Shown here piece by piece: positions 8,156 through 35,926 of a DNA stretch of 38,468 bases. Location: NCBI RefSeq assembly GCF_000317515.1, contig NC_019741.1, positions 1-38,468 of the forward strand, written 5' to 3'. The notes below the pieces were generated by a model. It was not told the origin of the DNA, did not search any database, and worked only from the letters and a program-made list of their open reading frames with translations. The position numbers and the translations under genes were made by a program. Positions within the stretch are counted from its first letter, which is position 1; every line of letters begins with the position of its first letter. This DNA is from Allocoleopsis franciscana PCC 7113 (GTDB lineage: Bacteria; Cyanobacteriota; Cyanobacteriia; Cyanobacteriales; Coleofasciculaceae).

Positions 8156-8701
8156 TCATTTCCTCTTCTCCTGTCGAAGGCGCAACACAGCGATTAGCTC
8201 TTCTGGATTTTCCTGTGCTTGCTCCAGAAGTCGGGTGATGGCTTCTTCTACAATTACCTCTTTATAAGGAGCGCTGCCCTTACCCAGTTCTAGCTGTAGC
8301 TGCAAATGAAACTTGTCTAACTGCTGCAAGACAGCAACACTTAGTTGGAAAGTAGCCTTACGGATGGCTGACTTGTTGACTTGTTGACTTGTTAGCTTGT
8401 CATCGGGTTGACTTGCTGACTTGTTGACTTGTTGACTTGTTAGCTTGTCATCGGGTTGACTTGCTGACTTGTTGACTTGTTGACTTGTTAGCTTGTCATC
8501 GGGTTGACTTGCTGACTTGTTGACTTGTTGACTTGTTAGCTTGTCATCGGGTTGGGTTGCTGTCTTGTTAACTTCCTGACTTGTTGACTTGTCATCAGGT
8601 TGACTGGCTGACTGGCTCAACTGCTCAAACCCTGCCAAGACTTTATCGGTGGAAGACAACGGGTCATTCTCCTCGTTTAACCGAGCGCGTCTTTTTGCCA
8701 C
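8156..8701 (-). CDS. parB: ParB-like partition partner with repeat region
   Basis: This is a 181-residue protein encoded just after parA and overlapping its end by 38 bases, the place of the centromere-binding partner in type I partition loci. The N-terminal 25 residues are basic and polar. Residues about 30-110 are a tandem repeat of a 16-residue unit (QPDDKLTSQQVNKSAS). The C-terminal domain (about 113-181, starting KATFQLSVAVLQQLDKFHLQ) looks like a small DNA-binding or dimerising helical domain and is not HTH-type ParB. The family assignment is by position and by the DNA repeats, since the fold is not certain. The repeat DNA (8367-8606) contains the same 9-mer as the inverted repeat before parA, suggesting that the protein binds both its own gene and the promoter. 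Confidence 0.7.
   Translation of the reverse strand: MAKRRARLNEENDPLSSTDKVLAGFEQLSQSASQPDDKSTSQEVNKTATQPDDKLTSQQVNKSASQPDDKLTSQQVNKSASQPDDKLTSQQVNKSASQPDDKLTSQQVNKSAIRKATFQLSVAVLQQLDKFHLQLQLELGKGSAPYKEVIVEEAITRLLEQAQENPEELIAVLRLRQEKRK
8367..8606. repeat. 48-bp tandem repeat inside parB-like gene
   Basis: Units at 8367-8414, 8415-8462 and 8463-8510 are identical. 8511-8558 differs at two bases and 8559-8606 is a decayed fifth copy. Each intact unit holds CTTGTTGAC twice with an 8-bp step, giving nine exact copies in all. This 9-mer also forms both arms of the inverted repeat at 9469-9496 before parA. It is a candidate centromere (parS-like) inside the coding region. Confidence 0.85.
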
Positions 8702-12789: not shown

Positions 12790-13071
12790 AGCACTGAGAA
12801 CGGAACGACAGCAGAAGTAGGGAACCAATTCAATATCGCTACTGATAGCAATACGATAGCAGAATCCCCGCCACAGCCTATAGCTCCACTCACCCAATCG
12901 GCGTTGGCAAAAAGATTGGGTATCTCAGACAAGGCAATCCAGAAGCATCGGCTTCATGGAGAGGAAAGCTTTGCTCAGTGGAGTCGCGATCGCGACCCGG
13001 ATGGCATCGCCTGGACTTGGGAGGGCAGGGGGGGCAGGGGTCAGCCCCTGCGGTTTGTGCCGCTGCTCTAG
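12262..13071 (+). CDS. Plasmid DNA-binding protein with GATATC-rich gene
   Basis: This is a 269-residue protein. The N-terminus (residues about 10-45, IRVPTPLVESVRELSRLHRA, then GRTKAVLEGIERLV) looks like a small ribbon-helix-helix or helical DNA-binding segment seen in plasmid proteins of cyanobacteria. Residues about 55-130 form a heptad-like Leu/Ile pattern consistent with a coiled coil, followed by an acidic Thr/Ser/Ala-rich linker (about 135-210). The C-terminal 55 residues carry a helix-turn-helix (LTQSALAKRLGISDKAIQKH) and a Trp-rich end. Its gene and promoter contain eight GATATC sites. The stop overlaps the stop of the next gene on the other strand. It may be a partition or replication-control protein; the function is inferred. 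Confidence 0.6.
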   Translation: MPDEPPSQMIRVPTPLVESVRELSRLHRAGRTKAVLEGIERLVAAIDSETEIDIDSVTNLISTLTFRLERLESERESEEAAIDIASLMLSISDLTERLVHVESDIEAIALTLQDLNVRMSDLEGMGDIGYTTSRLSELEALDDIGFDIDLTAAPPATADIATDSSAIAESQDRSDISTENGTTAEVGNQFNIATDSNTIAESPPQPIAPLTQSALAKRLGISDKAIQKHRLHGEESFAQWSRDRDPDGIAWTWEGRGGRGQPLRFVPLL

Positions 13072-13433
13072 CCGTCCTCCAAGCGAATCAGTTCTCGGCC
13101 AATGCGCTCCACCAGTTCAGATCGGCTAAGTCCCCGGCGAAGCGCCAATTGCTCCAAGCCTGCGTAAGCTTCATTGGTCAGGGTGAAAGTTCGGTTCTCT
13201 TTTTTTTCCTCGTAAGCAGCATTGCCCTTCTTTCCCTTCCCTTGTGGGCGATACGAACGGCGTATCGGTAATGGCTCAGGCACAAAAGTTTTGCAACAGA
13301 ATTTGCAAAGGTATCTCTGCGTTTTTTGTTTGTCCTGTTTTGTTTTCCGGTAAGAGCCGTTCCTAACAACATAGTCGGGCTTACCATAGCTGTCGCAAGT
13401 TTCATTTGGACAGGGGGGAGGGGAAGGGGGCAT
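13068..13433 (-). CDS. Zinc-ribbon and RHH DNA-binding protein
   Basis: This is a 121-residue protein. Residues about 8-52 form a zinc ribbon with paired cysteines (CPNETC, then QRYLCKFCCKTF) like the N-terminal element of IS1 InsA and related transposase-linked domains. The middle is very basic (RRSYRPQGKGKKG). The C-terminus (about 80-121, NRTFTLTNEAYAGLEQLALR and GLSRSELVERIGREL) looks like a ribbon-helix-helix DNA-binding unit. It may be a small plasmid regulator rather than a transposase, as there is no catalytic domain and no terminal repeat. It converges with the GATATC-rich gene, sharing a CTAG stop. An AAAGAAAG purine run precedes the ATG. Confidence 0.6.
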   Translation of the reverse strand: MPPSPPPCPNETCDSYGKPDYVVRNGSYRKTKQDKQKTQRYLCKFCCKTFVPEPLPIRRSYRPQGKGKKGNAAYEEKKENRTFTLTNEAYAGLEQLALRRGLSRSELVERIGRELIRLEDG

Positions 13434-14181: not shown

Positions 14182-17100
14182 TCAAGTGGAGGAATTAGCG
14201 CTCCTCCTCAAAGTATGAGGAGCAAAAGTGTCGTGAATCCCATTTGGTAACCGACATTCCGCTACAAGAGCATTAATATGGACAACTTCCAACTCAATTC
14301 CTTCAAGGTGTTTTAGGGACGGCAGGCCACCAGGATTAGTGAACTGTACCCGATCGCCACTCCGGAACTGCGGAAGATTTTCCGATTCCTCAATACTCGG
14401 CTCTTGCGCCCGCCGATTAGGTTCGGGGGTAGCAAGAGTTACTTCCGGGCTTGATTGCGCTTCAAGGTAAGAAAGGAAGTCTTGCAGCTCGGCATCGCTC
14501 ATGTACTTGCGCGATTTCTTTTTATAGTTCGCGACCAAATAATCACGAATTTGAGCGACCGACCACCCCAGTCTGTGCAACTCCTTGTCTGTGCGCTCGC
14601 TCAACTGATTCCGCTCTTGCTGCTGATGTGTGCCAGTCTGAACGGAACTGTCACACACTTCGGGAACTTCGGGATGGTTAGGGATGGGCATCCCTAAGTT
14701 GTTCCCTAACTTTGTATCGCCTACTGGTTCTACATCACAGCTTTCTTGAGGAGAAATTAGGGATGGTTCGGGAATATACCCCCCCTCTAAAGAAGGTTCT
14801 GACCCTTCTTCACCAGTATTTAAACTAGAAGCTTCTTTCCCAGATAAGTTAGGGATACCCATCCCTAACATCCCTAAGTTGTCCTCAATCCCTTTATTAT
14901 CAATGGTTTCAACTTCGGGATGTATCATCCCTAAGTCATCCCTAACCATCCCTAACATCCCTAAGTTGTCCGGTGGTGGTGGTGGATCATTGCCGAAAGT
15001 GTTATCACTATGCCAATGAAACTCCAAGCGATTTCCAGTCCCACGAGTACGCCCGTGCCCTTGTATCACAGCTTCCTTCATCCAATCTCGTGCCTGTTGT
15101 GCTGATGGTCGTTTTTTGGGTTGGAACTGTTCGCGATACTGCTGTGCTTTAATCCAGCCGTCTTTCCCGTTCGCTTCAAGTCGCTTTGATAATTCGATGA
15201 GCTTGGTGATGTGGCGGGGTAGACTTTCGTCGTCAGAGTCGGCGTGAATCAATTTGACTTGACCGATGTAGAACTTGGCTAAGGCGATCGCCATTTCCAT
15301 GATGTAAAGCGGTATCTCTTCTGATGGGCAAGCTTTACCCGCGTCCAGTTCCCACAGAACATGGAGATTGAGCGCTAGCCGCCCGATGATTCCTTTCATC
15401 TTCGAGTACACCGCCCTCATGCCTGGTTTGGGGTGAGTCACCCGCAGGCGTTCCAGATGGTCGTGCATCGGCTCATAACGCTTAAATGCCGCCCGTGACA
15501 ATCGGTACTCCATTTCTGGAATGCGTTCGACCAGGCGGTAAAAATCGGCAATGCGTGAGCGGATAGACACGGCTTGACCGTCATCATCCCCCAGCGGCGC
15601 AAAAGACAAAGGCTGGTTGACAAATAGGAACCTTGCCCACTGTCCATCTGGGTCTGAGCAGTCGCTCATGTGACCTTTGAGAACATCTGGTTGGATGGTA
15701 CCGAAGATGGAGAGGTAGATTCGCTCAACATCTACCTTTACGCCCGATGCCCGTAAGACCGTTTGACCAGTACCGTCAAAGTAACTGAGTAAATCCTGTT
15801 TATCGCTACCCCTGCCGCCACGATGGGCATTTTCACTTTTGAAGAGTCCTGCCAGTTCATCAATCAATGCCAGTAACGCCTTATCAGGCACCTTACTCGC
15901 TTGAACTGGGATGGCTTCACCCGTGGCATTGGTAAAGAAATAGAGCGTTGGGTCGGCAGGCTTTTTGGGTTTCTTCCCCTTCTCCTCTGATTGCTCCCAT
16001 GCCTGCATAGCTGCCTCATAATCTTCCATCGCAGCTTGATAGACTTCCACTTTCTCACGCCGCAGTTGGTTCAGGGGCTGGCGAATGATATTGGAAAACA
16101 CGGGGGACTTCAGTTGTCCAGATTCGGCCACGAGTGCGGCATACAATATTGGGGGCACCTCAAAATTTTTATTCCGGTGAATGACTAACTCTGTCCCAAC
16201 CTTGTGAAGACTGGACATTCCTGCTAAGAGCGTAGTTAGCGCGACGGCTGGACGGATAGAGAGCCAGTTACACCAGTCAGTTAGGGGGTTAGCCAAAGCT
16301 TCTGGAAGATAATCGGCTAAATTTAACGTTTGGTCGGTTATCTTCAGCAGATTATCAACTTCCGAGCAGTTTGTGTCGCGCTCGCTCTCCAACTCAACTT
16401 CACCCAACCGCTCGTAGTAAAGTTTCCTGAGTTCGCCGACGAAGAACTGGCTGGCTGCGGCAAGAGCGTTAAGCTGCCCCGTTAAATAAGAGCCGGTTGC
16501 ACCAAGGGTTATCAGTTCGTCAATTTTTTCTGTGACCTGCTCAAGAGTCAATGCCTCAAGACTGGGGAGACGTACAACTTTGCCAGTAGGCTCGCCCCCA
16601 TCACCGTCACCACCATCACTGCCGCTGCCACCAGCAACACCATTACCCCGGCGATTTCCACCGCCACTGCCAATGCCACCGCTGAAGCTTTTGCCCGTGG
16701 GCTTATCAAAAGGCGTTCGCCATCCGTCTTGCTTTGCCATGTGTGCCAGCGTTCCAATTGCTACCCCAGACCGTTTGAATGTTTTCCATTTTTTCTGGCA
16801 CTGACCAACCTTGTACTTGGGTGATAATTTGCTCCAGTCGTCCCATTCCAAGAGGAGCGAATCATCATTCAGGCTGTGTAATGCCATACCAACCACCAAC
16901 CAATTATCGTAATCGTCGGCGCGGCTGGGGGATAGGGCATTGAGGTAGGAGAGCGCCCACTGGATGTCAGTCCAGTGTTCCTGAGTATCGGGTTGGCGCT
17001 CGAGTGAGGGTGAAAAGGCTTCCTCGCTTTCTTTCAACATCTGCTCGATAACCCACTTTGGTGCTGGTGCGATCACAACTTCATCCGGAGATTTCCGCCA

Positions 17101-17673
17101 GCGATAGAAGCCAGTTTCTGGATGTACTGATGGGGGGAGTACGCTTTGGCATCCATCCCACCGCAGTTCCAATTTCTGCTCTTTCCCGTCGTCTCCTTTA
17201 ATCCCGGTGCTGATTTTCTTGGTAGCGATCGCGTCCCAATATTCAGTCGGAACATAGAAAAGATATTGGCAGCGACCGGGCTTGTTCGACGTGAAGGCGA
17301 CTGTTTCGGGCAGTGGCACCCCACCGGATAGGTCATTGATTTTGTCGTGAGCCGCAGGACCATCCGCATCGATGGCGATTATCCCGCCTGAGACTTTGCC
17401 TGTGCGTAGTCCGTAACCTTTGGCTTTTCCTGAGTTAATCTCCCTAGTAATCAGCTTGCGCTCAAGTGGTTTTTCGTTTTGCCAGTTCTTTCGGTAGGGC
17501 TGTTTGTTCCCATTCACTGGGGTAAGTGCCCAGTTTTCTGGGATTGATGATAATCCAAGGATTAGCTGATTACTGCGATCGCTCTCGATGACGGAGTTCT
17601 GTGGGCGAGATTCAGGGTGATCGCTTTTATTGGCTAAAGATTGAGCTGAAAATTCTGTGATTGCGGTAGACAT
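14182..17673 (-). CDS. Primase-polymerase/DUF3987 replication protein
   Basis: This is a 1163-residue plasmid replication protein with several parts. Residues about 45-215 are a bifunctional primase-polymerase domain (NWALTPVNGNKQPY, GYGLRTGKVSGGIIAIDADG with the metal-binding Asp pair, and SVLPPSVHPETG). Residues about 233-312 are PriCT-like (WTDIQWALSYLNAL, VGMALHSLNDD). A glycine-rich linker lies at about 320-360. Residues about 440-830 are DUF3987, with a weakened P-loop (ESGQLKSPVF). The C-terminus has NLGMLGM repeats (about 903-998) and an unassigned tail. The protein likely primes and perhaps unwinds at the plasmid origin. A GGAGGA ribosome site precedes the ATG at 17673. The gene itself carries the TCCCTAA repeats at 14678-14964. 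Confidence 0.85.
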   Translation of the reverse strand: MSTAITEFSAQSLANKSDHPESRPQNSVIESDRSNQLILGLSSIPENWALTPVNGNKQPYRKNWQNEKPLERKLITREINSGKAKGYGLRTGKVSGGIIAIDADGPAAHDKINDLSGGVPLPETVAFTSNKPGRCQYLFYVPTEYWDAIATKKISTGIKGDDGKEQKLELRWDGCQSVLPPSVHPETGFYRWRKSPDEVVIAPAPKWVIEQMLKESEEAFSPSLERQPDTQEHWTDIQWALSYLNALSPSRADDYDNWLVVGMALHSLNDDSLLLEWDDWSKLSPKYKVGQCQKKWKTFKRSGVAIGTLAHMAKQDGWRTPFDKPTGKSFSGGIGSGGGNRRGNGVAGGSGSDGGDGDGGEPTGKVVRLPSLEALTLEQVTEKIDELITLGATGSYLTGQLNALAAASQFFVGELRKLYYERLGEVELESERDTNCSEVDNLLKITDQTLNLADYLPEALANPLTDWCNWLSIRPAVALTTLLAGMSSLHKVGTELVIHRNKNFEVPPILYAALVAESGQLKSPVFSNIIRQPLNQLRREKVEVYQAAMEDYEAAMQAWEQSEEKGKKPKKPADPTLYFFTNATGEAIPVQASKVPDKALLALIDELAGLFKSENAHRGGRGSDKQDLLSYFDGTGQTVLRASGVKVDVERIYLSIFGTIQPDVLKGHMSDCSDPDGQWARFLFVNQPLSFAPLGDDDGQAVSIRSRIADFYRLVERIPEMEYRLSRAAFKRYEPMHDHLERLRVTHPKPGMRAVYSKMKGIIGRLALNLHVLWELDAGKACPSEEIPLYIMEMAIALAKFYIGQVKLIHADSDDESLPRHITKLIELSKRLEANGKDGWIKAQQYREQFQPKKRPSAQQARDWMKEAVIQGHGRTRGTGNRLEFHWHSDNTFGNDPPPPPDNLGMLGMVRDDLGMIHPEVETIDNKGIEDNLGMLGMGIPNLSGKEASSLNTGEEGSEPSLEGGYIPEPSLISPQESCDVEPVGDTKLGNNLGMPIPNHPEVPEVCDSSVQTGTHQQQERNQLSERTDKELHRLGWSVAQIRDYLVANYKKKSRKYMSDAELQDFLSYLEAQSSPEVTLATPEPNRRAQEPSIEESENLPQFRSGDRVQFTNPGGLPSLKHLEGIELEVVHINALVAECRLPNGIHDTFAPHTLRRSANSST
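14678..14964. repeat. TCCCTAA (TTAGGGA) iteron cluster in the rep gene
   Basis: Eight plus-strand TCCCTAA copies begin at 14691, 14703, 14862, 14871, 14928, 14939, 14949 and 14958, with three inverted copies at 14678, 14757 and 14849. The last four plus-strand copies are 9-11 bases apart, close to one helical turn. On the coding strand they often read Leu-Gly-Met, but the inverted copies do not. This looks like a set of initiator-binding iterons inside the replication gene. Confidence 0.8.
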
Positions 17674-17943: not shown

Positions 17944-18315
17944 CTAATTTGGTTGCTTCCCTTCTTTGAAAAGGCGATCGCGTAATTTAAACAGCGATTC
18001 TGGCTCAATGTTCAGTTCGTGCGCGGCGAGGATGATATTCGCATCTGTTGGCTTGGTATCACCTGCTAAGGCCGTGATGAATGCGATCGCTTCATCATAA
18101 TTTTTCTGATCTCCCTCTTCTTTTTCAATGGATTGAATGACAAAGGTTGCAGCCAAGTTACTGGCTGACCTGTTTTGCTTTTTTGCCATATTTTTGAGCC
18201 TTTCCAGGATTTCACCAGGGAGGTAGACCTGTATTTTGTTGTTGGAAGGCATATGGCCCAAAGTTTCTGATTGTTTTATATATCCATAGTCAACCATTGC
18301 CTTGCTTATAGTCAA
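17944..18315 (-). CDS. Ribbon-helix-helix repressor
   Basis: This is a protein of about 102-123 residues with a clear ribbon-helix-helix DNA-binding domain: NNKIQVYLPGEILERLKNMA, followed by SASNLAATFVIQSI. The C-terminal part (ALAGDTKPTDANIILAAHEL, then PESLFKLRDRLFKEG) is helical. The longest frame starts with TTG at 18315. ATG codons at 18297 and 18252 are alternatives, and the domain begins just after 18252. It is divergent from the ParM gene, and a perfect 13-bp inverted repeat between the two overlaps the -35 box of the ParM promoter. It probably represses both directions. Confidence 0.75.
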   Translation of the reverse strand: MTISKAMVDYGYIKQSETLGHMPSNNKIQVYLPGEILERLKNMAKKQNRSASNLAATFVIQSIEKEEGDQKNYDEAIAFITALAGDTKPTDANIILAAHELNIEPESLFKLRDRLFKEGKQPN

Positions 18316-28060: not shown

Positions 28061-29656
28061 ATGCCAGCCAATTACACCGAGATTGAAAAGCGCCTTTGGG
28101 AAGCAGCGGATGAACTCAGGGCGAACTCGAAGCTCAAACCCTCTGAATACTCGGTGCCAGTGCTGGGGCTGATTTTCCTTCTCTACGCTGACTATAAGTT
28201 TGCTCTAGTTGAGCAGGAAATAGCGGCAGGTAGGATGAGCCGTCGGCGCACGGTGGGGAAGACAGATTACCAGGCAAAGGGGGCGTTGTTTCTGCCGGAG
28301 ACTGCCCGTTTTGATTATTTGCTCAATCTGCCGGAAGCGGAGGATATTGGTGGGGCGATAAATGCGGCGATGAAGGCTATTGCAGATGAGAACGAAGAAC
28401 TGGGCGGTGCTTTGCCTAGAAACTATAACAGCTTGGAAAAGCCGATTCTGCGGGAGTTGCTGAAAATCGTCAACCGGATTTCCAGAGAAGGGATTACTGA
28501 GGATGCGTTTGGGGAGATTTATCAGTATTTCCTGGGTAATTTTGCTCAGAAGGAAGGGCAAAAGGGGGGTGAGTTTTTTACTCCGACTTCCTTGGTAAAG
28601 CTGATTGTCGAGGTGATTGAGCCGGATTATGGCATGATTTTAGACCCAGCCTGTGGTGCTGGGGGGATGTTCGTGCAGAGTGCGGTGCGGATTCGCAATA
28701 AATTAAACCAAGACCCGAATAAGGTGATTAGTGTCTACGGGCAGGAGAAGGTAGACGGAACGGTGAAACTCTGTCAGATGAACCTGGCAGTACACGGGGT
28801 TTCGGGTTTACGCAATATCCGGCAGGGCAACACCTATTACGAAGATATTCACAACAGCGCCACTTATGACAAAGATGCTCAAGACAGCATCGGGGCGTTT
28901 GACTTTGTGATGGCGAATCCGCCATTTAATGTGAATGGGGTGGATCGGGAGAAGATAAAAGGCGACCCTCACTATCCCTTTGGCGTTCCTTCAACAGACA
29001 ATGCGAATTATCTCTGGATTCAGTTATTCTACAGTGCTTTAAATCAGAACGGACGGGCGGGGTTTGTCATGGCAAACTCGGCATCGGATGCGCGGGGTTC
29101 TGAGTTGGAGATTCGCCGCCAGTTGATTGAAAAGGGGGCGGTGGATGTGATGATTGCGATCGGGTCTAATTTCTTCTACACGGTGACGCTGCCCTGTACG
29201 CTGTGGTTTTTGGACAGGGGGAAGGTGAAGACACCTCGCAAGGAGAAGGTGTTATTTATTGATGCGCGGCATATTTATCGTCAGGTTGACCGCGCCCATC
29301 GGGATTTTAGCGAACAACAGGTTGAGTTTATTGCCAATATTGTGCGGCTGTACCGAGGGGAAGCGGTAGAGGTGACGGGTGCTGAGTCCAAAATGTTGGC
29401 TGAGACGTTCCCAGAGGGGGCTTATCGGGATGTCGCAGGGTTGTGCAAAGTGGCGACGTTGGCTGAGATTGAGGCACAGGGATGGAGTCTCAATCCTGGG
29501 CGTTATGTGGGGGTAGCCCAACGCAAGGAAGCGGAGGATTTTGATTTTGCCGAACGGTTGGAAGAGTTGAATGAGGAGTTGGAAATCCTTAATGTTGAGG
29601 CAAGGGAATTGGAGGAGAGGATTGCTGAGAATGTGGCGCAGTTATTGAACTTGTAG
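28061..29656 (+). CDS. hsdM: Type I restriction-modification methyltransferase subunit
   Basis: This is a 531-residue N6-adenine DNA methyltransferase subunit of a type I system. The N-terminal HsdM domain starts [20 protein letters not shown]. The SAM-binding motif is [15 protein letters not shown] (about 190-204), and the catalytic motif IV is MANPPFN (about 285-291). [20 protein letters not shown] lies between them, as is normal. The C-terminus is a coiled coil ([20 protein letters not shown]). Motif IV is intact. It is the first gene of the operon; the ParD-like gene begins nine bases later. Works with HsdS to methylate and with HsdR to cut. Confidence 0.95.
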
Positions 29657-29664
29657 GAGTGACC

Positions 29665-29931
29665 ATGAATATTAGTTTAAAACCAGAACACGAACAATTC
29701 ATTCAGTCTCAAGTGGCGAGTGGGAGATTTGCTAATCAGGAGGAAGTGATTGATATCGCTTTTCGCTTGTTAGAAAAGCTTTATGGTGAGTATGAACAAT
29801 GGATAGAAGAAACGCGGAACAAGATTGATATAGGGATTGCAGAACTTGACCGAGGGGAAGGATTAGATGGGGAAACTGTCGTCGCGGGGATTTTAGAGAG
29901 ATTTAAAAAAGCACGTCAAGAGCAAGAATGA
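29665..29931 (+). CDS. parD: ParD-family antitoxin
   Basis: This is an 88-residue antitoxin from the ATG at 29665 (TAGGAG upstream; a GTG at 29659 is the alternative). The ribbon-helix-helix part is MNISLKPEHEQFIQSQVASG, then RFANQEEVIDIAFRLLEKL. The C-terminus (about 45-88, acidic and Lys/Glu-rich) would wrap the toxin. It overlaps the ParE-like toxin gene by four bases (ATGA), the standard order of antitoxin first. It sits inside the restriction operon between hsdM and hsdS, where it would make loss of the operon costly. Confidence 0.85.
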   Translation: MNISLKPEHEQFIQSQVASGRFANQEEVIDIAFRLLEKLYGEYEQWIEETRNKIDIGIAELDRGEGLDGETVVAGILERFKKARQEQE

Positions 29932-30233
29932 GTCGTTATCTGATTTCACCTTCTGCGAGTCGGGATTTGAATGCTATTGCTGACTATTTCTTGACTAGGA
30001 ATGTAGACGCTGGAGAGAGGTTATTTCATGAGTTCACTAAAAAGTGCCAGTACATAGCACAATTTCCCAACTTAGGTAAAAGTTACAGTTATCTTCGACC
30101 TTCCTTACGGGGGTTGCCTTTAGATGGATACATTATTTTCTATCGAGTTGTTGAAGATGGGGTTGAAATTGTGCGGGTGGTGAGTGGTCGTCAAGATTTA
30201 GAATCCTTGTTTTCTGAGTCGGATGATGGATGA
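29928..30233 (+). CDS. parE: ParE/RelE-superfamily toxin
   Basis: This is a 101-residue toxin of the ParE branch: YLISPSASRDLNAIADYFLT, GERLFHEFTKKCQYIAQFPN, LGKSYSYLRPSLRGLPLDGY, IIFYRVVEDGVEIVRVVSGR, QDLESLF. ParE proteins poison DNA gyrase, and RelE relatives cut mRNA; the sequence favours ParE (YRPSLRG/GYIIFYR pattern). It overlaps the antitoxin gene. It is complete in length (about 100 residues), so it is likely active. Confidence 0.85.
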   Translation: MSRYLISPSASRDLNAIADYFLTRNVDAGERLFHEFTKKCQYIAQFPNLGKSYSYLRPSLRGLPLDGYIIFYRVVEDGVEIVRVVSGRQDLESLFSESDDG

Positions 30234-30242
30234 GGCAAAGGA

Positions 30243-30560
30243 ATGAGTGAAACTAAACAATTACCAGTCGCAATTCCCAAGGAAGAAATAGAGCAATTTT
30301 GTCAGCGTCACCATATCCGCAAACTGTCTTTATTTGGTTCGGTGTTAAGGGATGATTTTACACCGGAGAGCGATATTGATTTTTTAGTAGAGTTTGAGCC
30401 GAGAAAAACTCCGGGTTTCTTTAAGATTGTCAGTATGGAAATGGAACTTTCTGAACTGTTAGAGGGGAGAAAGATAGATTTAAGAACTCCTAATGAGTTG
30501 AGTATTTATTTTCGAGACAGAGTGATGGATGAGGCTGTGGTGCAGTATGACAGCAATTGA
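30243..30560 (+). CDS. mntA: MNT-type nucleotidyltransferase (antitoxin-like)
   Basis: This is a 105-residue minimal nucleotidyltransferase. The catalytic signature GSVLRDDFTPESDIDFLVEF (residues about 32-51) has the GS and D-x-D pair, and KIDLRTP carries the third carboxylate region. Such proteins usually pair with a HEPN-domain RNase toxin (HepT) and silence it by AMP transfer. No HEPN gene is adjacent: the next gene is hsdS, which overlaps its end. It is therefore a solitary MNT inside a restriction operon; it may act on another protein there. Confidence 0.8.
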   Translation: MSETKQLPVAIPKEEIEQFCQRHHIRKLSLFGSVLRDDFTPESDIDFLVEFEPRKTPGFFKIVSMEMELSELLEGRKIDLRTPNELSIYFRDRVMDEAVVQYDSN

Positions 30561-31878
30561 TGATTTAACTCGCTTGATGCAAAAACATAAAAAAGACGGT
30601 TGGCGCAAAGTCAAACTAAAAGAAGTCTGCCGTGAAATTACAGTTGGTCATGTAGGATCGATGGCAAAAGAATATGTTGATGAAGGTATTCCTTTCTTAC
30701 GTTCTCAGAATATCTTGCCATTTAGCCTTGAATTATCCTCGGTTAAGTACGTTACACCTGAGTTTCACGGCAAGCTGAGGAAGTCAGCCTTGTCACCAGG
30801 AGACGTTGCAGTTGTAAGAACAGGCTATCCTGGCACCGCTTGTGTTATTCCCTCTAAGCTTTCTATATCTAACTGTGCAGACTTAGTTATTATTCGCCCA
30901 TCAGAAGAAGTTAATGCGAAATATCTTACTTGCGTTTTTAATTCAACTTGGGGACAAGGGACAATAGCAGGAACCTTAGTCGGAGTAGCGCAGCAGCATT
31001 TCAATGTTAGTGCTGCAAAGGAGATGGAAGTCAATCTTCCACCTCGCCAAACTCAAGACAAAATTGCAGCGATTATTTACAACTATAACGACCTAATCGA
31101 GAACAACACGAGGCGGATAGAGATACTGGAAGAGATGGCGCGATCGCTCTACCGCCAGTGGTTCGTCAACTTCCGCTTTCCTGGACATGAACAGGTGAAG
31201 ATGGTTGATTCAGAATTTGGGCTGATTCCTGAAGGTTGGGAGGTAACATCTATAGGAAATCATATTAATACTCAAAAGGGTTATGCCTTTAAAAGTATTT
31301 GGTATCAAGAAGAAGGGATAAAGATTGTTAAAGTTTCAGATTTTACTAATGATTCTATAGATATTAGTAAATTAGTCAGTATTTCTGAAGAAATAGCAGG
31401 GCAATATAAAAAGCATGAACTTGAGGCTAATGACATTATTATTCAAACTGTGGGTTCCTGGGCTTCAAATCCTCAATCTGTAGTTGGCAAAGTAATTAGA
31501 GCTCCTAAAATTGCGGCGAAAGCATTGCTTAATCAAAACGCTGTAAAGGTAATTCCAAAAGAATCAATTAATCAAGTTTTCCTTTTTTATAGCCTTAAAA
31601 ATGAACGGTTCAAAAGTTATATAATTGGCTGCGCTCAAGGTGCTGCTAGCCAAGCCAGTATTACTCTTGATGCCATTAGAGAATTTGAGGTTTTACTACC
31701 GCCCATTAGTTTGCTCAATTCTTTTGATAGTTTTGTTCAACCCGTGTGGGCTTTAATAAATAATTTAGAGGAGAAAAAAAATAATCTTCGTTACACTCGT
31801 GACTATCTACTACCCAAAATCATCTCAGGTGAGATTGACCTAGAAAAATTTGAAAAAAATTTGGAAGGAGTAGCATAA
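30547..31878 (+). CDS. hsdS: Type I restriction-modification specificity subunit
   Basis: This is a 443-residue HsdS from the ATG at 30547, which overlaps the MNT gene end. It has the usual two target-recognition domains: TRD1 from GWRKVKLKEVCREI to about residue 165, the central conserved helix (RIEILEEMARSLYRQWFVNF), then TRD2 from PEGWEVTSIGNHINTQKGYA to about 420, and the end helix (NLRYTRDYLLPKIISGEIDL). TRD1 and TRD2 set the two halves of the target. TRD2 is much richer in A+T than TRD1 and the rest of the operon, suggesting a swapped domain. Confidence 0.92.
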   Translation: MTAIDDLTRLMQKHKKDGWRKVKLKEVCREITVGHVGSMAKEYVDEGIPFLRSQNILPFSLELSSVKYVTPEFHGKLRKSALSPGDVAVVRTGYPGTACVIPSKLSISNCADLVIIRPSEEVNAKYLTCVFNSTWGQGTIAGTLVGVAQQHFNVSAAKEMEVNLPPRQTQDKIAAIIYNYNDLIENNTRRIEILEEMARSLYRQWFVNFRFPGHEQVKMVDSEFGLIPEGWEVTSIGNHINTQKGYAFKSIWYQEEGIKIVKVSDFTNDSIDISKLVSISEEIAGQYKKHELEANDIIIQTVGSWASNPQSVVGKVIRAPKIAAKALLNQNAVKVIPKESINQVFLFYSLKNERFKSYIIGCAQGAASQASITLDAIREFEVLLPPISLLNSFDSFVQPVWALINNLEEKKNNLRYTRDYLLPKIISGEIDLEKFEKNLEGVA

Positions 31879-32765
31879 TGCAGATATCAGGAATAACAAT
31901 TTCCCAGTTAGCACTAATTATAACTGGGGATAGCAATATTTCACCTTACAGAAGTCGTTACCAACTTATAGACTTTTTTCAGGAAATTGATTCAGATAAT
32001 GCTGATAGAGAACATTTATCTAGACGTGAATATACCGAGTGCAAAATAAAAGAAGCCAATGGAACTTCTAATTTACCTATAGTTTTTCGTAATGCTTTAG
32101 ACCCCAGAAACTTTTTAGAAACAACGTTTGAACTTGAAGAAGTTGTAAAAAAGCTAAATGTTTTTTTAGAATATGACAAATATAAAATTGTAAAAATAGG
32201 CGAATTCTACGAAGTCAAGGATAACCGAGGTATGGCTGTTGAGCTTGAATTACCATTTGAAGGCTCAACAGAAATAAGCCACGTTTTCATTGAAGAGCAA
32301 ATCCAGAAATGTGAGCGAAAAATTAGAGAAGGTGATTTTGACGGTGCTATTACAAATGCTCGTTCATTGTTAGAAGCAGTCTTGCTATATGTAGAAAAGA
32401 AATTAAGTCAATCTCCTCCTGAGTATGATGGCAAATTACCTAAGCTATATACTCGTGTACAAGAATTACTCAACCTTGAACCATCAAGAAAAGACATTTC
32501 TCAAGCTTTAATTCAGATGCTTCAAGGTTTAACTAGCGTTGTTTCAGGTTTAGCTGGAGTAAGTAATATGATGGCTGATAGACACGCTAGAAAATATAAG
32601 CCAGCAAAACATCACGCTGTTGTATCTGTGAATGCTTCAAAAACAGTAGCAGATTTTATTTTTGAAACTTTCTCCTATCAATTGAGTAAGGGAAGTATTG
32701 GTCTTCAGACTAGTCAGACAATATCAGCAGATGAGGCAGCAGATCCAGGAATATCTAAATCATGA
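31878..32765 (+). CDS. Abi_C domain protein in the restriction operon
   Basis: This is a 295-residue protein that resembles the abortive infection C-terminal (Abi_C) family in its C-terminal half (about 160-275): DGAITNARSLLEAVLLYVEK, KLPKLYTRVQELLNLEP, LQGLTSVVSGLAGVSNMMAD, RHARKYKPAKHHAVVSVNAS, KTVADFIFETFSYQ. The N-terminal half is unassigned. Its ATG overlaps the hsdS stop by one base and its end overlaps hsdR by four, so it is made as part of the restriction operon. It is very A+T-rich compared with hsdR. It may act if restriction fails, or may modulate HsdR; this is inference. Confidence 0.7.
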   Translation: MQISGITISQLALIITGDSNISPYRSRYQLIDFFQEIDSDNADREHLSRREYTECKIKEANGTSNLPIVFRNALDPRNFLETTFELEEVVKKLNVFLEYDKYKIVKIGEFYEVKDNRGMAVELELPFEGSTEISHVFIEEQIQKCERKIREGDFDGAITNARSLLEAVLLYVEKKLSQSPPEYDGKLPKLYTRVQELLNLEPSRKDISQALIQMLQGLTSVVSGLAGVSNMMADRHARKYKPAKHHAVVSVNASKTVADFIFETFSYQLSKGSIGLQTSQTISADEAADPGISKS

Positions 32766-35700
32766 CCCCACCTCACCCCGACTCAGAAGAAGCCCTAGAA
32801 CTCGAAACCATCGCCCTATTTGAACAACTCGGCTACACCACCGCCAACTGCTACAACGAATGGAATAGCGGCACCAGCACATTAGGGCGAGAAACCAGAA
32901 GCGACGTAGTGCTAATCTCCAAACTGCGCCCAGCCCTCGAAAAACTCAACCCCCACCTCCCCAACCAAGCCATCACCCTCGCCATTGAAGAACTCACCCG
33001 CGACAGAAGCGCCCTCACCCTCGCCAGCGCCAACCGGGAAATTTACGATCGCCTCAAAGATAGAGTAAAAGTTACCTACCGCAACGACGAGGGCGAAGAC
33101 GTAACTGAAAACGTCACCGTCATCGACTGGCAAACCCCCACCAACAACGAGTTCTTCCTCGCCTCCCAATTCTGGATAGCCGGGGAAATGTACACCCGCC
33201 GCACCGATTTAATCGGCTTTATTAACGGTATTCCCCTCATCTTTATCGAACTCAAAGCCTCTAGAGAACGAGTCGAATTCGCCTACCAAAACAACTTCTG
33301 CGACTACCGAAAAGAAATCCCCCAACTGTTCTGGTATAACGGCATTGTCATCCTCTCCAACGGCAGCATTAGCAAAATCGGTAGCCTCACCGCCACCTGG
33401 GAGTACTTCTCAGACTGGAAGAAAATCAACAGTGAAGGTGAAGCAGGAATCATCTCCCTCGATACGATGATTCGCGGCACCTGCGACAAAACCAAACTCT
33501 TAGATATCGTCGAAAACTTCACCTTATTTAGCGAAGAACAAGGCGGCTTAATCAAACTCGTAGCCAAAAATCACCAGTATCTCGGTGTTAATAATTGCCT
33601 AGAAGCCGTGCAAAACATCCGAGAAAACCAAGGCAAACTCGGAGTATTCTGGCACACCCAAGGCAGCGGCAAAAGCTTCTCCATGCAGTTTTTTTCCCAG
33701 AAAGTTCACCGCACAGTTGAGGGAAACTGGACGTTTGTAATTATCACCGACAGAGACGATTTAGACGACCAAATCTACAAAAACTTTGCCAAAACAGGTG
33801 CCGTCACCGAACCCGAAAAAGAAGTCAGGGCAAAGAGTGGCGAACACCTCAAACAACTCTTGACAGAAGACCATCGTTATGTGTTTACCTTAATACAAAA
33901 ATTCCGCACTAAAAAAGGCGAGAAATACCCCAAACTCTCCGATAGAGATGATGTAATTGTGATTGCCGACGAAGCGCACCGTTCCCAATACGATAGCTTC
34001 GCCAGAAATATGCGAACCGCATTACCCCAAGCAGGATTTATCGGCTTCACTGGCACACCCCTACTCGTGGGAGAAGAAGCCACGCGGCGCGAATTTGGCG
34101 ACTACATTAGCATCTACAACTTCCGCCAATCCATCGAAGACGGCGCAACGGTTCCCCTGTTTTATGAAAACCGCATCCCCCAACTGGAACTGACTAATTC
34201 TGAACTCAACGAAGAGATTACCGATGCCATCGAATCAGCCGATTTAGATGAGGCACAAGAGAATAAACTGGAACGGGAATTTTCGCGGGAATATCACCTG
34301 ATAACGCGAGAGGAACGCTTAGACGAAATCGCCCAAGATATTGTCACTCACTTTTTAGGACGGGGATACCAGGGCAAAGCAATGGTAGTCTCCATCGATC
34401 GCTTCACGGCTGTCAAAATGTACAATAAAGTCCAGTACTATTGGCAGCAGCAGTTAACCGAGTTACAGAACCAACTCACCACCGCCAGAGAGAGTGAACG
34501 CGAACAGCTAACCGCGAAGATTCAGTACCTAGAAGAAACCGACATGGCGGTAGTCATTTCCTCCTCCCAGAATGAGGAAGAAGCGTTTAACAAAAAAGGC
34601 TTAACAATTAAACCCCACCGCCAGCGTCTCGCCAAAGAGAAACCGGGACTGGACGTAAAATTCAAAGATGCCAGTAACCCGCTGCGAATCGTCTTTGTCT
34701 GCGCCATGTGGATGACAGGCTTTGACGCCCCCAGTTGTTCCACCATTTACCTGGACAAACCAATGCGGAACCACACCCTGATGCAAACCATCGCCAGGGC
34801 AAATCGGGTATTTGGGGAAAAGGTAAACGGGCTGATCGTAGACTATATCGGCGTGTTCCGCGACTTGCAAAGGGCGTTAGCGATTTACGGTTCCGCATCC
34901 GGTGGCGGTGTAGAAGCAGGCGATACCCCGGTACAATCCAAGGAAGCCCTGGTGGAGAAATTGAGAAAGGCGATCGCAGATACTCTACAATTCTGTAGCG
35001 ATCGCGGCATCAACTTTGACCAAATCCAAACCACTACCCAAGCCTTTGCCCGTACCAAGCTATGGAATGATGCCGTCGAAGCCATCCTCGTGAACGACGA
35101 TTCCAAGCAGCGGTATCTGGCACTCACTCAGAACGTCACCAAACTCTACAAAGCCATTCTCCCAGACCCATCAGCGGGTGAGTTCAATCCCACCTTATAT
35201 GCCTTTGGTGAAATCACCAAGCGCATCAGAAACCTGGCTTCCCCGGTGGACATTTCCGAAGTCAAAGCCGCCGTTGAGGAAATTCTGGACGAGTCCATCG
35301 GTACGTTAAAGTATGTCATCCCCGAATCCAACCAACTCATCGACCTCAGCCAAATTGACTTTGACGCCCTCAAGGCCCAGTTTGACAAGGGGTACAAGCA
35401 CACGGAAGCCGAGAAGCTAAAAGGGGCAATTAGCATCCAGCTAACCCAGATGGTACGCCTCAACAAAAGCCGGATGAATTATCTGGACAAGTTCCAGCAG
35501 ATGATTGATGAATACAATGCTGGTTCTCGTAACGTGGAAACCTTCTTTACCGAGTTGGTGGAGTTTGCCCAGGAACTGAAGGTTGAGGATAAACGTGCGA
35601 TCGCAGAGAATCTGGAAGAAGAAGAACTGGCAATTGTTGACCTGCTGACGAAGCCAGATATTACCTTAACTGAGAAGGAGAAGCTGGACGTTAAGAAGGT

Positions 35701-35926
35701 GGCAAAGGAACTTTTGTCAACCCTGAAGCAAGAAAAATTAGTACTGGACTGGCGCAGACGGCAGAAGACGAAAGCAGAAGTTAAAGTTGCGATCGCAGAC
35801 ATTTTAGACCAACTGCCGGAAAGCTATTCAACTGACGTGTATGAGCGCAAGTGCGAAGAGGTGTATCATCACGTCTATGAGTCGTACTCTGGGGCAGGAC
35901 GCAGTATTTACAATACAGCGGCTTGA
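32762..35926 (+). CDS. hsdR: Type I restriction endonuclease subunit
   Basis: This is a 1054-residue motor and nuclease subunit. The N-terminal PD-(D/E)xK nuclease has the signature LIFIELKASRERVEFAYQN (about 158-176). The SF2 helicase motor has Walker A HTQGSGKSFSMQ (about 297-308), DEAH box IADEAHRS (about 402), motif III GFTGTPL (about 426) and motif VI QTIARANRVF (about 680). Length and order match the family. The gene overlaps the Abi_C gene by four bases. The first third is rich in C and the codon use differs visibly from the Abi_C gene before it. It translocates DNA and cuts unmethylated targets with HsdM and HsdS. Confidence 0.95.
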   Translation: MTPPHPDSEEALELETIALFEQLGYTTANCYNEWNSGTSTLGRETRSDVVLISKLRPALEKLNPHLPNQAITLAIEELTRDRSALTLASANREIYDRLKDRVKVTYRNDEGEDVTENVTVIDWQTPTNNEFFLASQFWIAGEMYTRRTDLIGFINGIPLIFIELKASRERVEFAYQNNFCDYRKEIPQLFWYNGIVILSNGSISKIGSLTATWEYFSDWKKINSEGEAGIISLDTMIRGTCDKTKLLDIVENFTLFSEEQGGLIKLVAKNHQYLGVNNCLEAVQNIRENQGKLGVFWHTQGSGKSFSMQFFSQKVHRTVEGNWTFVIITDRDDLDDQIYKNFAKTGAVTEPEKEVRAKSGEHLKQLLTEDHRYVFTLIQKFRTKKGEKYPKLSDRDDVIVIADEAHRSQYDSFARNMRTALPQAGFIGFTGTPLLVGEEATRREFGDYISIYNFRQSIEDGATVPLFYENRIPQLELTNSELNEEITDAIESADLDEAQENKLEREFSREYHLITREERLDEIAQDIVTHFLGRGYQGKAMVVSIDRFTAVKMYNKVQYYWQQQLTELQNQLTTARESEREQLTAKIQYLEETDMAVVISSSQNEEEAFNKKGLTIKPHRQRLAKEKPGLDVKFKDASNPLRIVFVCAMWMTGFDAPSCSTIYLDKPMRNHTLMQTIARANRVFGEKVNGLIVDYIGVFRDLQRALAIYGSASGGGVEAGDTPVQSKEALVEKLRKAIADTLQFCSDRGINFDQIQTTTQAFARTKLWNDAVEAILVNDDSKQRYLALTQNVTKLYKAILPDPSAGEFNPTLYAFGEITKRIRNLASPVDISEVKAAVEEILDESIGTLKYVIPESNQLIDLSQIDFDALKAQFDKGYKHTEAEKLKGAISIQLTQMVRLNKSRMNYLDKFQQMIDEYNAGSRNVETFFTELVEFAQELKVEDKRAIAENLEEEELAIVDLLTKPDITLTEKEKLDVKKVAKELLSTLKQEKLVLDWRRRQKTKAEVKVAIADILDQLPESYSTDVYERKCEEVYHHVYESYSGAGRSIYNTAA

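Follow-up and report, generated by a model that had tools for sequence, protein, structure and literature searches.

Putative origin iterons within the linker code of a DUF3987 replication gene on a cyanobacterial plasmid

Why should a replication gene carry, inside its own reading frame, a dense array of one short DNA word in both orientations? In the window, that is, the whole stretch of 38,468 nucleotides analysed here from Allocoleopsis franciscana PCC 7113, the heptamer TTAGGGA (TCCCTAA on the opposite strand) occurs in 11 exact copies between positions 14678 and 14964, three on one strand and eight on the other, which agrees with the eleven copies in both orientations within 287 bases that the first-pass annotation had counted. 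That annotation took them for initiator iterons and remarked that iterons usually lie outside rep genes, a fair generalization to which the embedded origins of lambda O and pSK41 are exceptions. Very probably, as sequence comparisons suggest, the plasmid's own Rep binds these repeats as its iterons, and they form the plasmid origin, embedded in the code for the linker between the winged helix and the C-terminal module.

Domain order of the Rep protein

The Rep protein combines a Prim-Pol domain, PriCT_2, DUF3987, a winged helix, the iteron linker and a C-terminal module, in this order, and the corresponding features are as follows.

14182..17673, minus strand: rep gene, open reading frame of 1163 aa (Pfam PF09250, PF08707, PF13148)
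17053..17538, minus strand: Prim-Pol domain, aa 46-207 (PF09250, E 2e-29)
16735..16950, minus strand: PriCT_2 domain, aa 242-313 (PF08707, E 3.7e-23)
15247..16251, minus strand: DUF3987 domain, aa 475-809 (PF13148, E 1.9e-40), predicted AAA+ MCM-like fold
15013..15222, minus strand: winged helix, aa ~818-887 (AF2 secondary structure, pLDDT 90-96; structure matches; iteron covariation)
14455..14649, minus strand: C-terminal module, aa 1009-1073 (NCBIfam NF058667, E 5e-14; chromosomal relative L189)

The Prim-Pol, PriCT_2 and DUF3987 matches all exceed the Pfam cut-offs, and Pfam found in this Rep neither a RepA_N domain nor the DUF3854 and DEXDc domains that define CyRepA. DUF3987 fused to primases has been described as a predicted helicase (PMC5862659). 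The region from DUF3987 to the winged helix was modelled by AlphaFold with a pLDDT of 93.8 and a pTM of 0.89; the ATPase model matched AAA+ chains of MCM proteins at Z scores of up to 18.6, with an rmsd of 3.4 across 266 residues, and the SCCmec Cch structure (5dgk) was among the Foldseek matches of the DUF3987 model. Residues 818-887, directly ahead of the array, are modelled as a winged helix, and this region modelled alone also matches winged-helix proteins. The C-terminal module, which aligns with positions 171-238 of the 239 of NF058667 (slr1353 family) and stays under the family cut-off for the whole protein, was present in only two other family members, indicating that Rep tails are variable. 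Chromosomal cyanobacterial proteins, of the slr1353 family and a DuOB-domain protein, have a similar C-terminus (L189:907-1716, L190:853-1650).

The heptamer array in the window and in its nearest relative

The array begins at about residue 904 and the winged helix ends at about residue 887, placing the sites inside the open reading frame, in the linker that follows the DNA-binding domain. It is composed of two half-arrays, of which half A has the canonical arrangement, half B being irregular in orientation.

14862..14964, minus strand: half-array A, TTAGGGA sites spaced 9, 10, 11, 57 and 9 bp, heptamers and spacing kept in the relative L159
14958-14964, 14949-14955, 14939-14945 and 14928-14934, minus strand: TTAGGGA cluster of half A
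14871-14877 and 14862-14868, minus strand: second TTAGGGA cluster of half A
14914-14920: TTCGGGA variant within half A, in the orientation opposite to the half A sites
14849..14855, plus strand: inverted TTAGGGA adjoining half A
14764..14848, no strand: central spacer separating the two halves, AT content 56% (gene, 49%)
14659..14763, mixed orientation: half-array B, TTAGGGA and TTCGGGA sites
14757-14763 (plus), 14703-14709 (minus), 14691-14697 (minus) and 14678-14684 (plus): TTAGGGA sites of half B
14668-14674 and 14659-14665, plus strand: TTCGGGA variants of half B

At least three TTCGGGA variants, those listed above, are part of the TTAGGGA array. In coding order the exact copies are spaced by 9, 10, 11, 57, 9, 13, 92, 54, 12 and 13 bp; helical phasing, as claimed in the first-pass annotation, therefore fits the sub-clusters only and does not extend over the whole array, where spacings reach 92 bp. 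Clustered copies of a short repeat near rep, one of the features of iteron origins, are present here (11 heptamers in 287 bp) beyond what the code would yield: in 20,000 resamples of synonymous codons for the same peptide, copies averaged 0.53 and did not exceed 5, against the 11 observed. Heptamer matches across the window numbered 13 against 4.6 expected, a count reached in no shuffle, and no other both-orientation heptamer array with at least 6 copies occurs in the 38-kb window. A dispersed genomic repeat was considered and excluded, since TTAGGGATG (the heptamer plus ATG) occurs genome-wide at near-background frequency (56+56, against 45+47 for the reversed control). Elsewhere in the window, five 48-bp tandem repeats of single orientation (8367-8613), coding TSQQVNKSASQPDDKL units, sit in a small gene (8156-8701) overlapping the end of parA.

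The nearest relative, L159, is an IMG/VR contig with 67-68% identity in the helicase and winged-helix region, and it carries the heptamer 13 times at the corresponding position. Its half A sites, at 0, 9, 19, 30, 87 and 96 bp, coincide in position with those of the window, with no difference in any of the 42 site bases. Agreement drops to 3 of 11 for the bases between neighbouring in-cluster sites, and non-site bases as a whole (44 of 67 identical) diverge as much as the helicase code (67%). Since the site bases are kept while the between-site bases and the linker peptide change, from NLGMLGMVRDDLGM in the window to NLGNLGKLREDLGN in L159, the constraint acts on DNA. The assignment of initiator iterons to the rep linker is thereby supported, and the pattern for which the first-pass annotation proposed to look among relatives, conserved spacing with changed codons, is found in L159; the case that it named as refuting, a heptamer lost while a homologue keeps the peptide, is not what the homologues show.

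These data bear directly on the suggestion that the repeats reflect protein sequence or slippage in a repetitive disordered linker (NLGMLGM) and have no function as DNA. Low-complexity repeats are frequent in linkers, and seven of the 11 copies share one frame. Nevertheless, the copies are read in four contexts on both strands (TTA-GGG-A, coding LG, seven times; frame +1, VRD, once; inverted IPN twice; inverted SLI once), their number exceeds the synonymous-codon null, L159 retains the heptamer despite an altered peptide, and arrays of the same type are non-coding in relatives with a short Rep. The purely protein-level account, which the first-pass annotation already considered less likely, is contradicted by these observations and can hardly be maintained.

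It has also to be weighed whether the functional element is a large stem-loop, either a DNA cruciform or an RNA, with the heptamers merely forming its arms, as in pRN1, where the stem-loop sits downstream of the rep gene (PMC4234260). The array region does fold far better as RNA than its shuffles (z -5.5); however, this fold was not counted as evidence because inverted half-arrays fold in this way by construction. Moreover, each half is built of direct repeats at 8-12 bp, the halves are unequal in number and spacing, the between-site bases are not conserved and the array region has no Rfam match, all of which make a stem-loop element highly improbable.

Gene neighbourhoods were compared as well. 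L159 has only a tyrosine recombinase in common with the window, indicating that the array travels with rep and not with a partition module. Type I restriction-modification genes, with M, S and R subunits by sequence, occupy 28061-35926 of the window; the stretch that separates M from S holds a nucleotidyltransferase-like gene and a pair of toxin-antitoxin-like genes.

Arrays across the Rep family and the winged helix

Rep loci were collected by similarity to the window Rep from related genomes, many of them drafts, PLSDB plasmids, GTDB contigs and IMG/VR. Single-protein pattern scans of genome and viral contigs for close homologues yielded none, a search with a 10-row alignment as query yielded further loci, and phage records contained partial relatives of Rep only. 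For each locus, the gene and 1.5 kb on each side were scanned for the best both-orientation heptamer array with at least 6 exact copies, and an array was assigned to the winged-helix end when it started between -80 and +560 bp from that end. By this measure, 58 of 110 testable loci have an array at the winged-helix end, 9 have one elsewhere, including two (L116, L120) where it begins only slightly earlier, and 43 have none. Synonymous-shuffled genes yielded any such array in 1 of 555 cases. The loci without an array under this strict exact-heptamer criterion include the close relatives L038 and L040. In two Reps with about 50% identity (L035, L036), repeats of a single orientation precede the gene instead, and L107 likewise has upstream repeats. 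The array set excludes, as being of another kind, a few weak arrays and the tandem repeat of L105, whose 33-bp units all share one frame.

The heptamer varies by plasmid: TTAGGGA in the window and L159, TTAGACR in L042, L043 and L126, TCAGGAC in L044, CAGTAGT in L097, TGTCAGC in L096, TGTAGAC in L091, AGTGGAC in L090 and TGTTGGC in L164. A family-wide search with the window's own double heptamer gave scattered near-matches only, because the relatives use other heptamers. In contrast to the words, the layout recurs. A typical half-array consists of 4-5 sites at 8-12 bp, about one helical turn, a gap of ~42-67 bp and 2-3 sites at 8-9 bp, and after the central spacer this pattern recurs reversed (L097, L096, L069 and the non-coding L164). 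The majority orientation of the two halves is opposite in 56 arrays and the same in 4, whereas permutations gave a mean of 27 and a maximum of 38. This layout is common to dozens of cyanobacterial plasmids, each of which has its own repeat word. Two distant DUF3987 Reps from IMG/VR, L176 and L180, carry two-half arrays of 12 and 11 copies, the former spanning the stop codon, and the two-half layout may accordingly be older than this cyanobacterial group. Second arrays of a different heptamer, TGTAGAC, were also seen in L142 (+1104 to +1391 from the core end) and L136, downstream of Reps with an internal array.

In 46 loci the array lies inside the gene, and the frame continues for 67-543 aa beyond the winged helix. 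In 18 loci, mostly picocyanobacterial, only 2-13 aa separate the winged helix from the end of Rep, and the array starts just after the stop codon. Among the short spacings, those divisible by three make up 64% within genes (peaks at 9 and 12) versus 23% outside (peaks at 8 and 11). The existence of both versions, together with this shift in spacing, indicates that the reading frame has been fitted around an origin-like element and not the reverse; the linker peptide is probably a passive by-product.

Which part of Rep would read the heptamers? With the contribution of the helicase partialled out, iteron difference follows winged-helix difference (partial r 0.17; 0 of 300 permutations), whereas the converse test gives -0.01; the signal is modest, and distance tests leave part of shared ancestry in. 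Together with the models, this covariation points to the winged helix as the likely reader. A more local case is offered by L146 (Synechococcus Baikal-G1) and L150 (Cyanobium Cruz-8D1), whose helicases are 97% identical. Their DNA is 89% identical until ~190 bp before the stop codon, has no detectable similarity over the following ~480-520 bp, which comprise the winged-helix code and the array, and is 84% identical afterwards. This correlation is what the exchange of a specificity cassette would leave.

The same pair bears on the proposal that the array is a centromere-like partition site, or an operator, bound not by Rep but by a nearby ribbon-helix-helix (RHH) or ParB-like protein. Two RHH-type genes flank the window rep (13068-13433 and 17944-18315), and ParG, HTH or ParM genes occur near several homologous rep genes. 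Nevertheless, L159 shares the heptamer without a homologue of the RHH-type genes, the position of the array is tied to the winged-helix end across plasmids with different partition genes, and in L146/L150 the array differs jointly with the winged-helix code. A partition site or operator is therefore considered very unlikely.

Several observations count against an origin reading: the 43 of 110 loci without an array, the upstream repeats of L035 and L036, the irregular half B and the GC skew of the window, which the first-pass annotation had named as a check and which gave no clear origin signal. Another comes from two co-resident plasmids of Nostoc CENA543, pCENA543c (L092) and pCENA543a (L093), whose helicases are 99% identical and which share the iteron TGTCGGC, a coexistence that is unexpected under an incompatibility view and indicates that iterons alone do not set compatibility. 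The A. franciscana genome itself encodes three DUF3987 Reps, on contigs C2 (L050), C4 (the window) and C7 (L035), each of which has its own repeats (AATTGAC on C2, TTAGGGA on C4 and, upstream of the gene and in a single orientation, AACGTGT on C7), as expected of compatible replicons.

Candidate replication mechanism, known systems and implications

If the heptamers are iterons of the origin, Rep would bind them through its winged helix, and Rep multimers would assemble on each half-array. The AAA+ domain, with its MCM-like fold, would then form ring helicases, plausibly one per half-array; two rings are suggested by the two-half layout and the modelled fold, by analogy with SaPI Rep/Cch2. These rings would open the DNA between the half-arrays, the fused primase-polymerase would prime, and host polymerases would extend. 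The central spacer is a weak candidate for the melting region: across the family, central spacers exceed the gene mean by 9 points of AT (56 of 66 positive), but the most AT-rich 40-bp stretch shows no preference for them (16 of 66). An array within the gene also means that rep transcription crosses it, as in lambda.

SaPI Rep and Cch2 are initiator helicases with an iteron origin directly downstream of the gene, for which two hexamers have been proposed (PMC7581432). SaPI Rep and SCCmec Cch resemble the present Rep in layout only, namely in the C-terminal placement of the DNA-binding domain on an initiator helicase and in the sets of short repeats just 3' of its code, and their likeness in the ATPase is at fold level only (MCM and Cch, 5dgk). 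Unlike them, the window Rep has a fused primase-polymerase, a DUF3987 helicase and cyanobacterial hosts, and in most members of its family the array lies in the reading frame. In the RepA_N protein of pSK41, Rep boxes central in rep encode a dispensable linker after the winged helix (PMC5703833), a placement shared by the putative origin sites of the window, in linker code behind a winged helix. However, RepA_N proteins have no primase or helicase domain and their winged helix is N-terminal, whereas in the window the winged helix ahead of the array is C-terminal and the two halves of the array are opposite in orientation. The gene for lambda O likewise carries its iterons in its central part (PMC3985674), but these are four 19-bp iterons and the host helicase is recruited via P, whereas the window Rep has its own predicted helicase and primase. 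The putative origin would work in the manner of SaPI-type origins and be positioned as in lambda O and pSK41. P4 alpha and pRN1 ORF904 combine primase, helicase and winged-helix origin recognition in one polypeptide (PMC4234260), the same three functions as here; P4 alpha differs in its bacterial-type (Toprim) primase and pRN1 in its stem-loop origin, and for neither is an origin inside the gene described in that paper. CyRepA1 and CyRepA2, also replication proteins of cyanobacterial plasmids, are DUF3854 plus DEXDc proteins (PMC10079941), and the likeness of the window Rep to records annotated CyRepA1 is confined to its primase part. In the literature searched, in which subscription journals are thinly covered, no described origin of a DUF3987 Rep was found; CyRepA-type and other cyanobacterial Reps have been reported.

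More tentatively, the family may represent widespread one-protein replicons, in which a Prim-Pol joined to an MCM-like helicase would act as two head-to-head rings on a two-half, in-frame origin. The winged helix and array would form an exchangeable specificity cassette, and three-base spacing would satisfy the coding and origin constraints together. This wider picture, which we hold to be possible rather than probable, would apply to cyanobacterial plasmids and possibly beyond.

Under the origin reading, some plasmids use the same type of DNA to encode protein while others keep it as a non-coding origin, and because both versions exist, the cost of dual coding is directly visible, for example in 9/12-bp versus 8/11-bp spacing. 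If the reading is right, it would supply predicted origins for dozens of cyanobacterial plasmids and a simple rule by which a plasmid's iteron can be read from its rep gene, as well as a predictor of competing plasmids and parts for compatible vectors.
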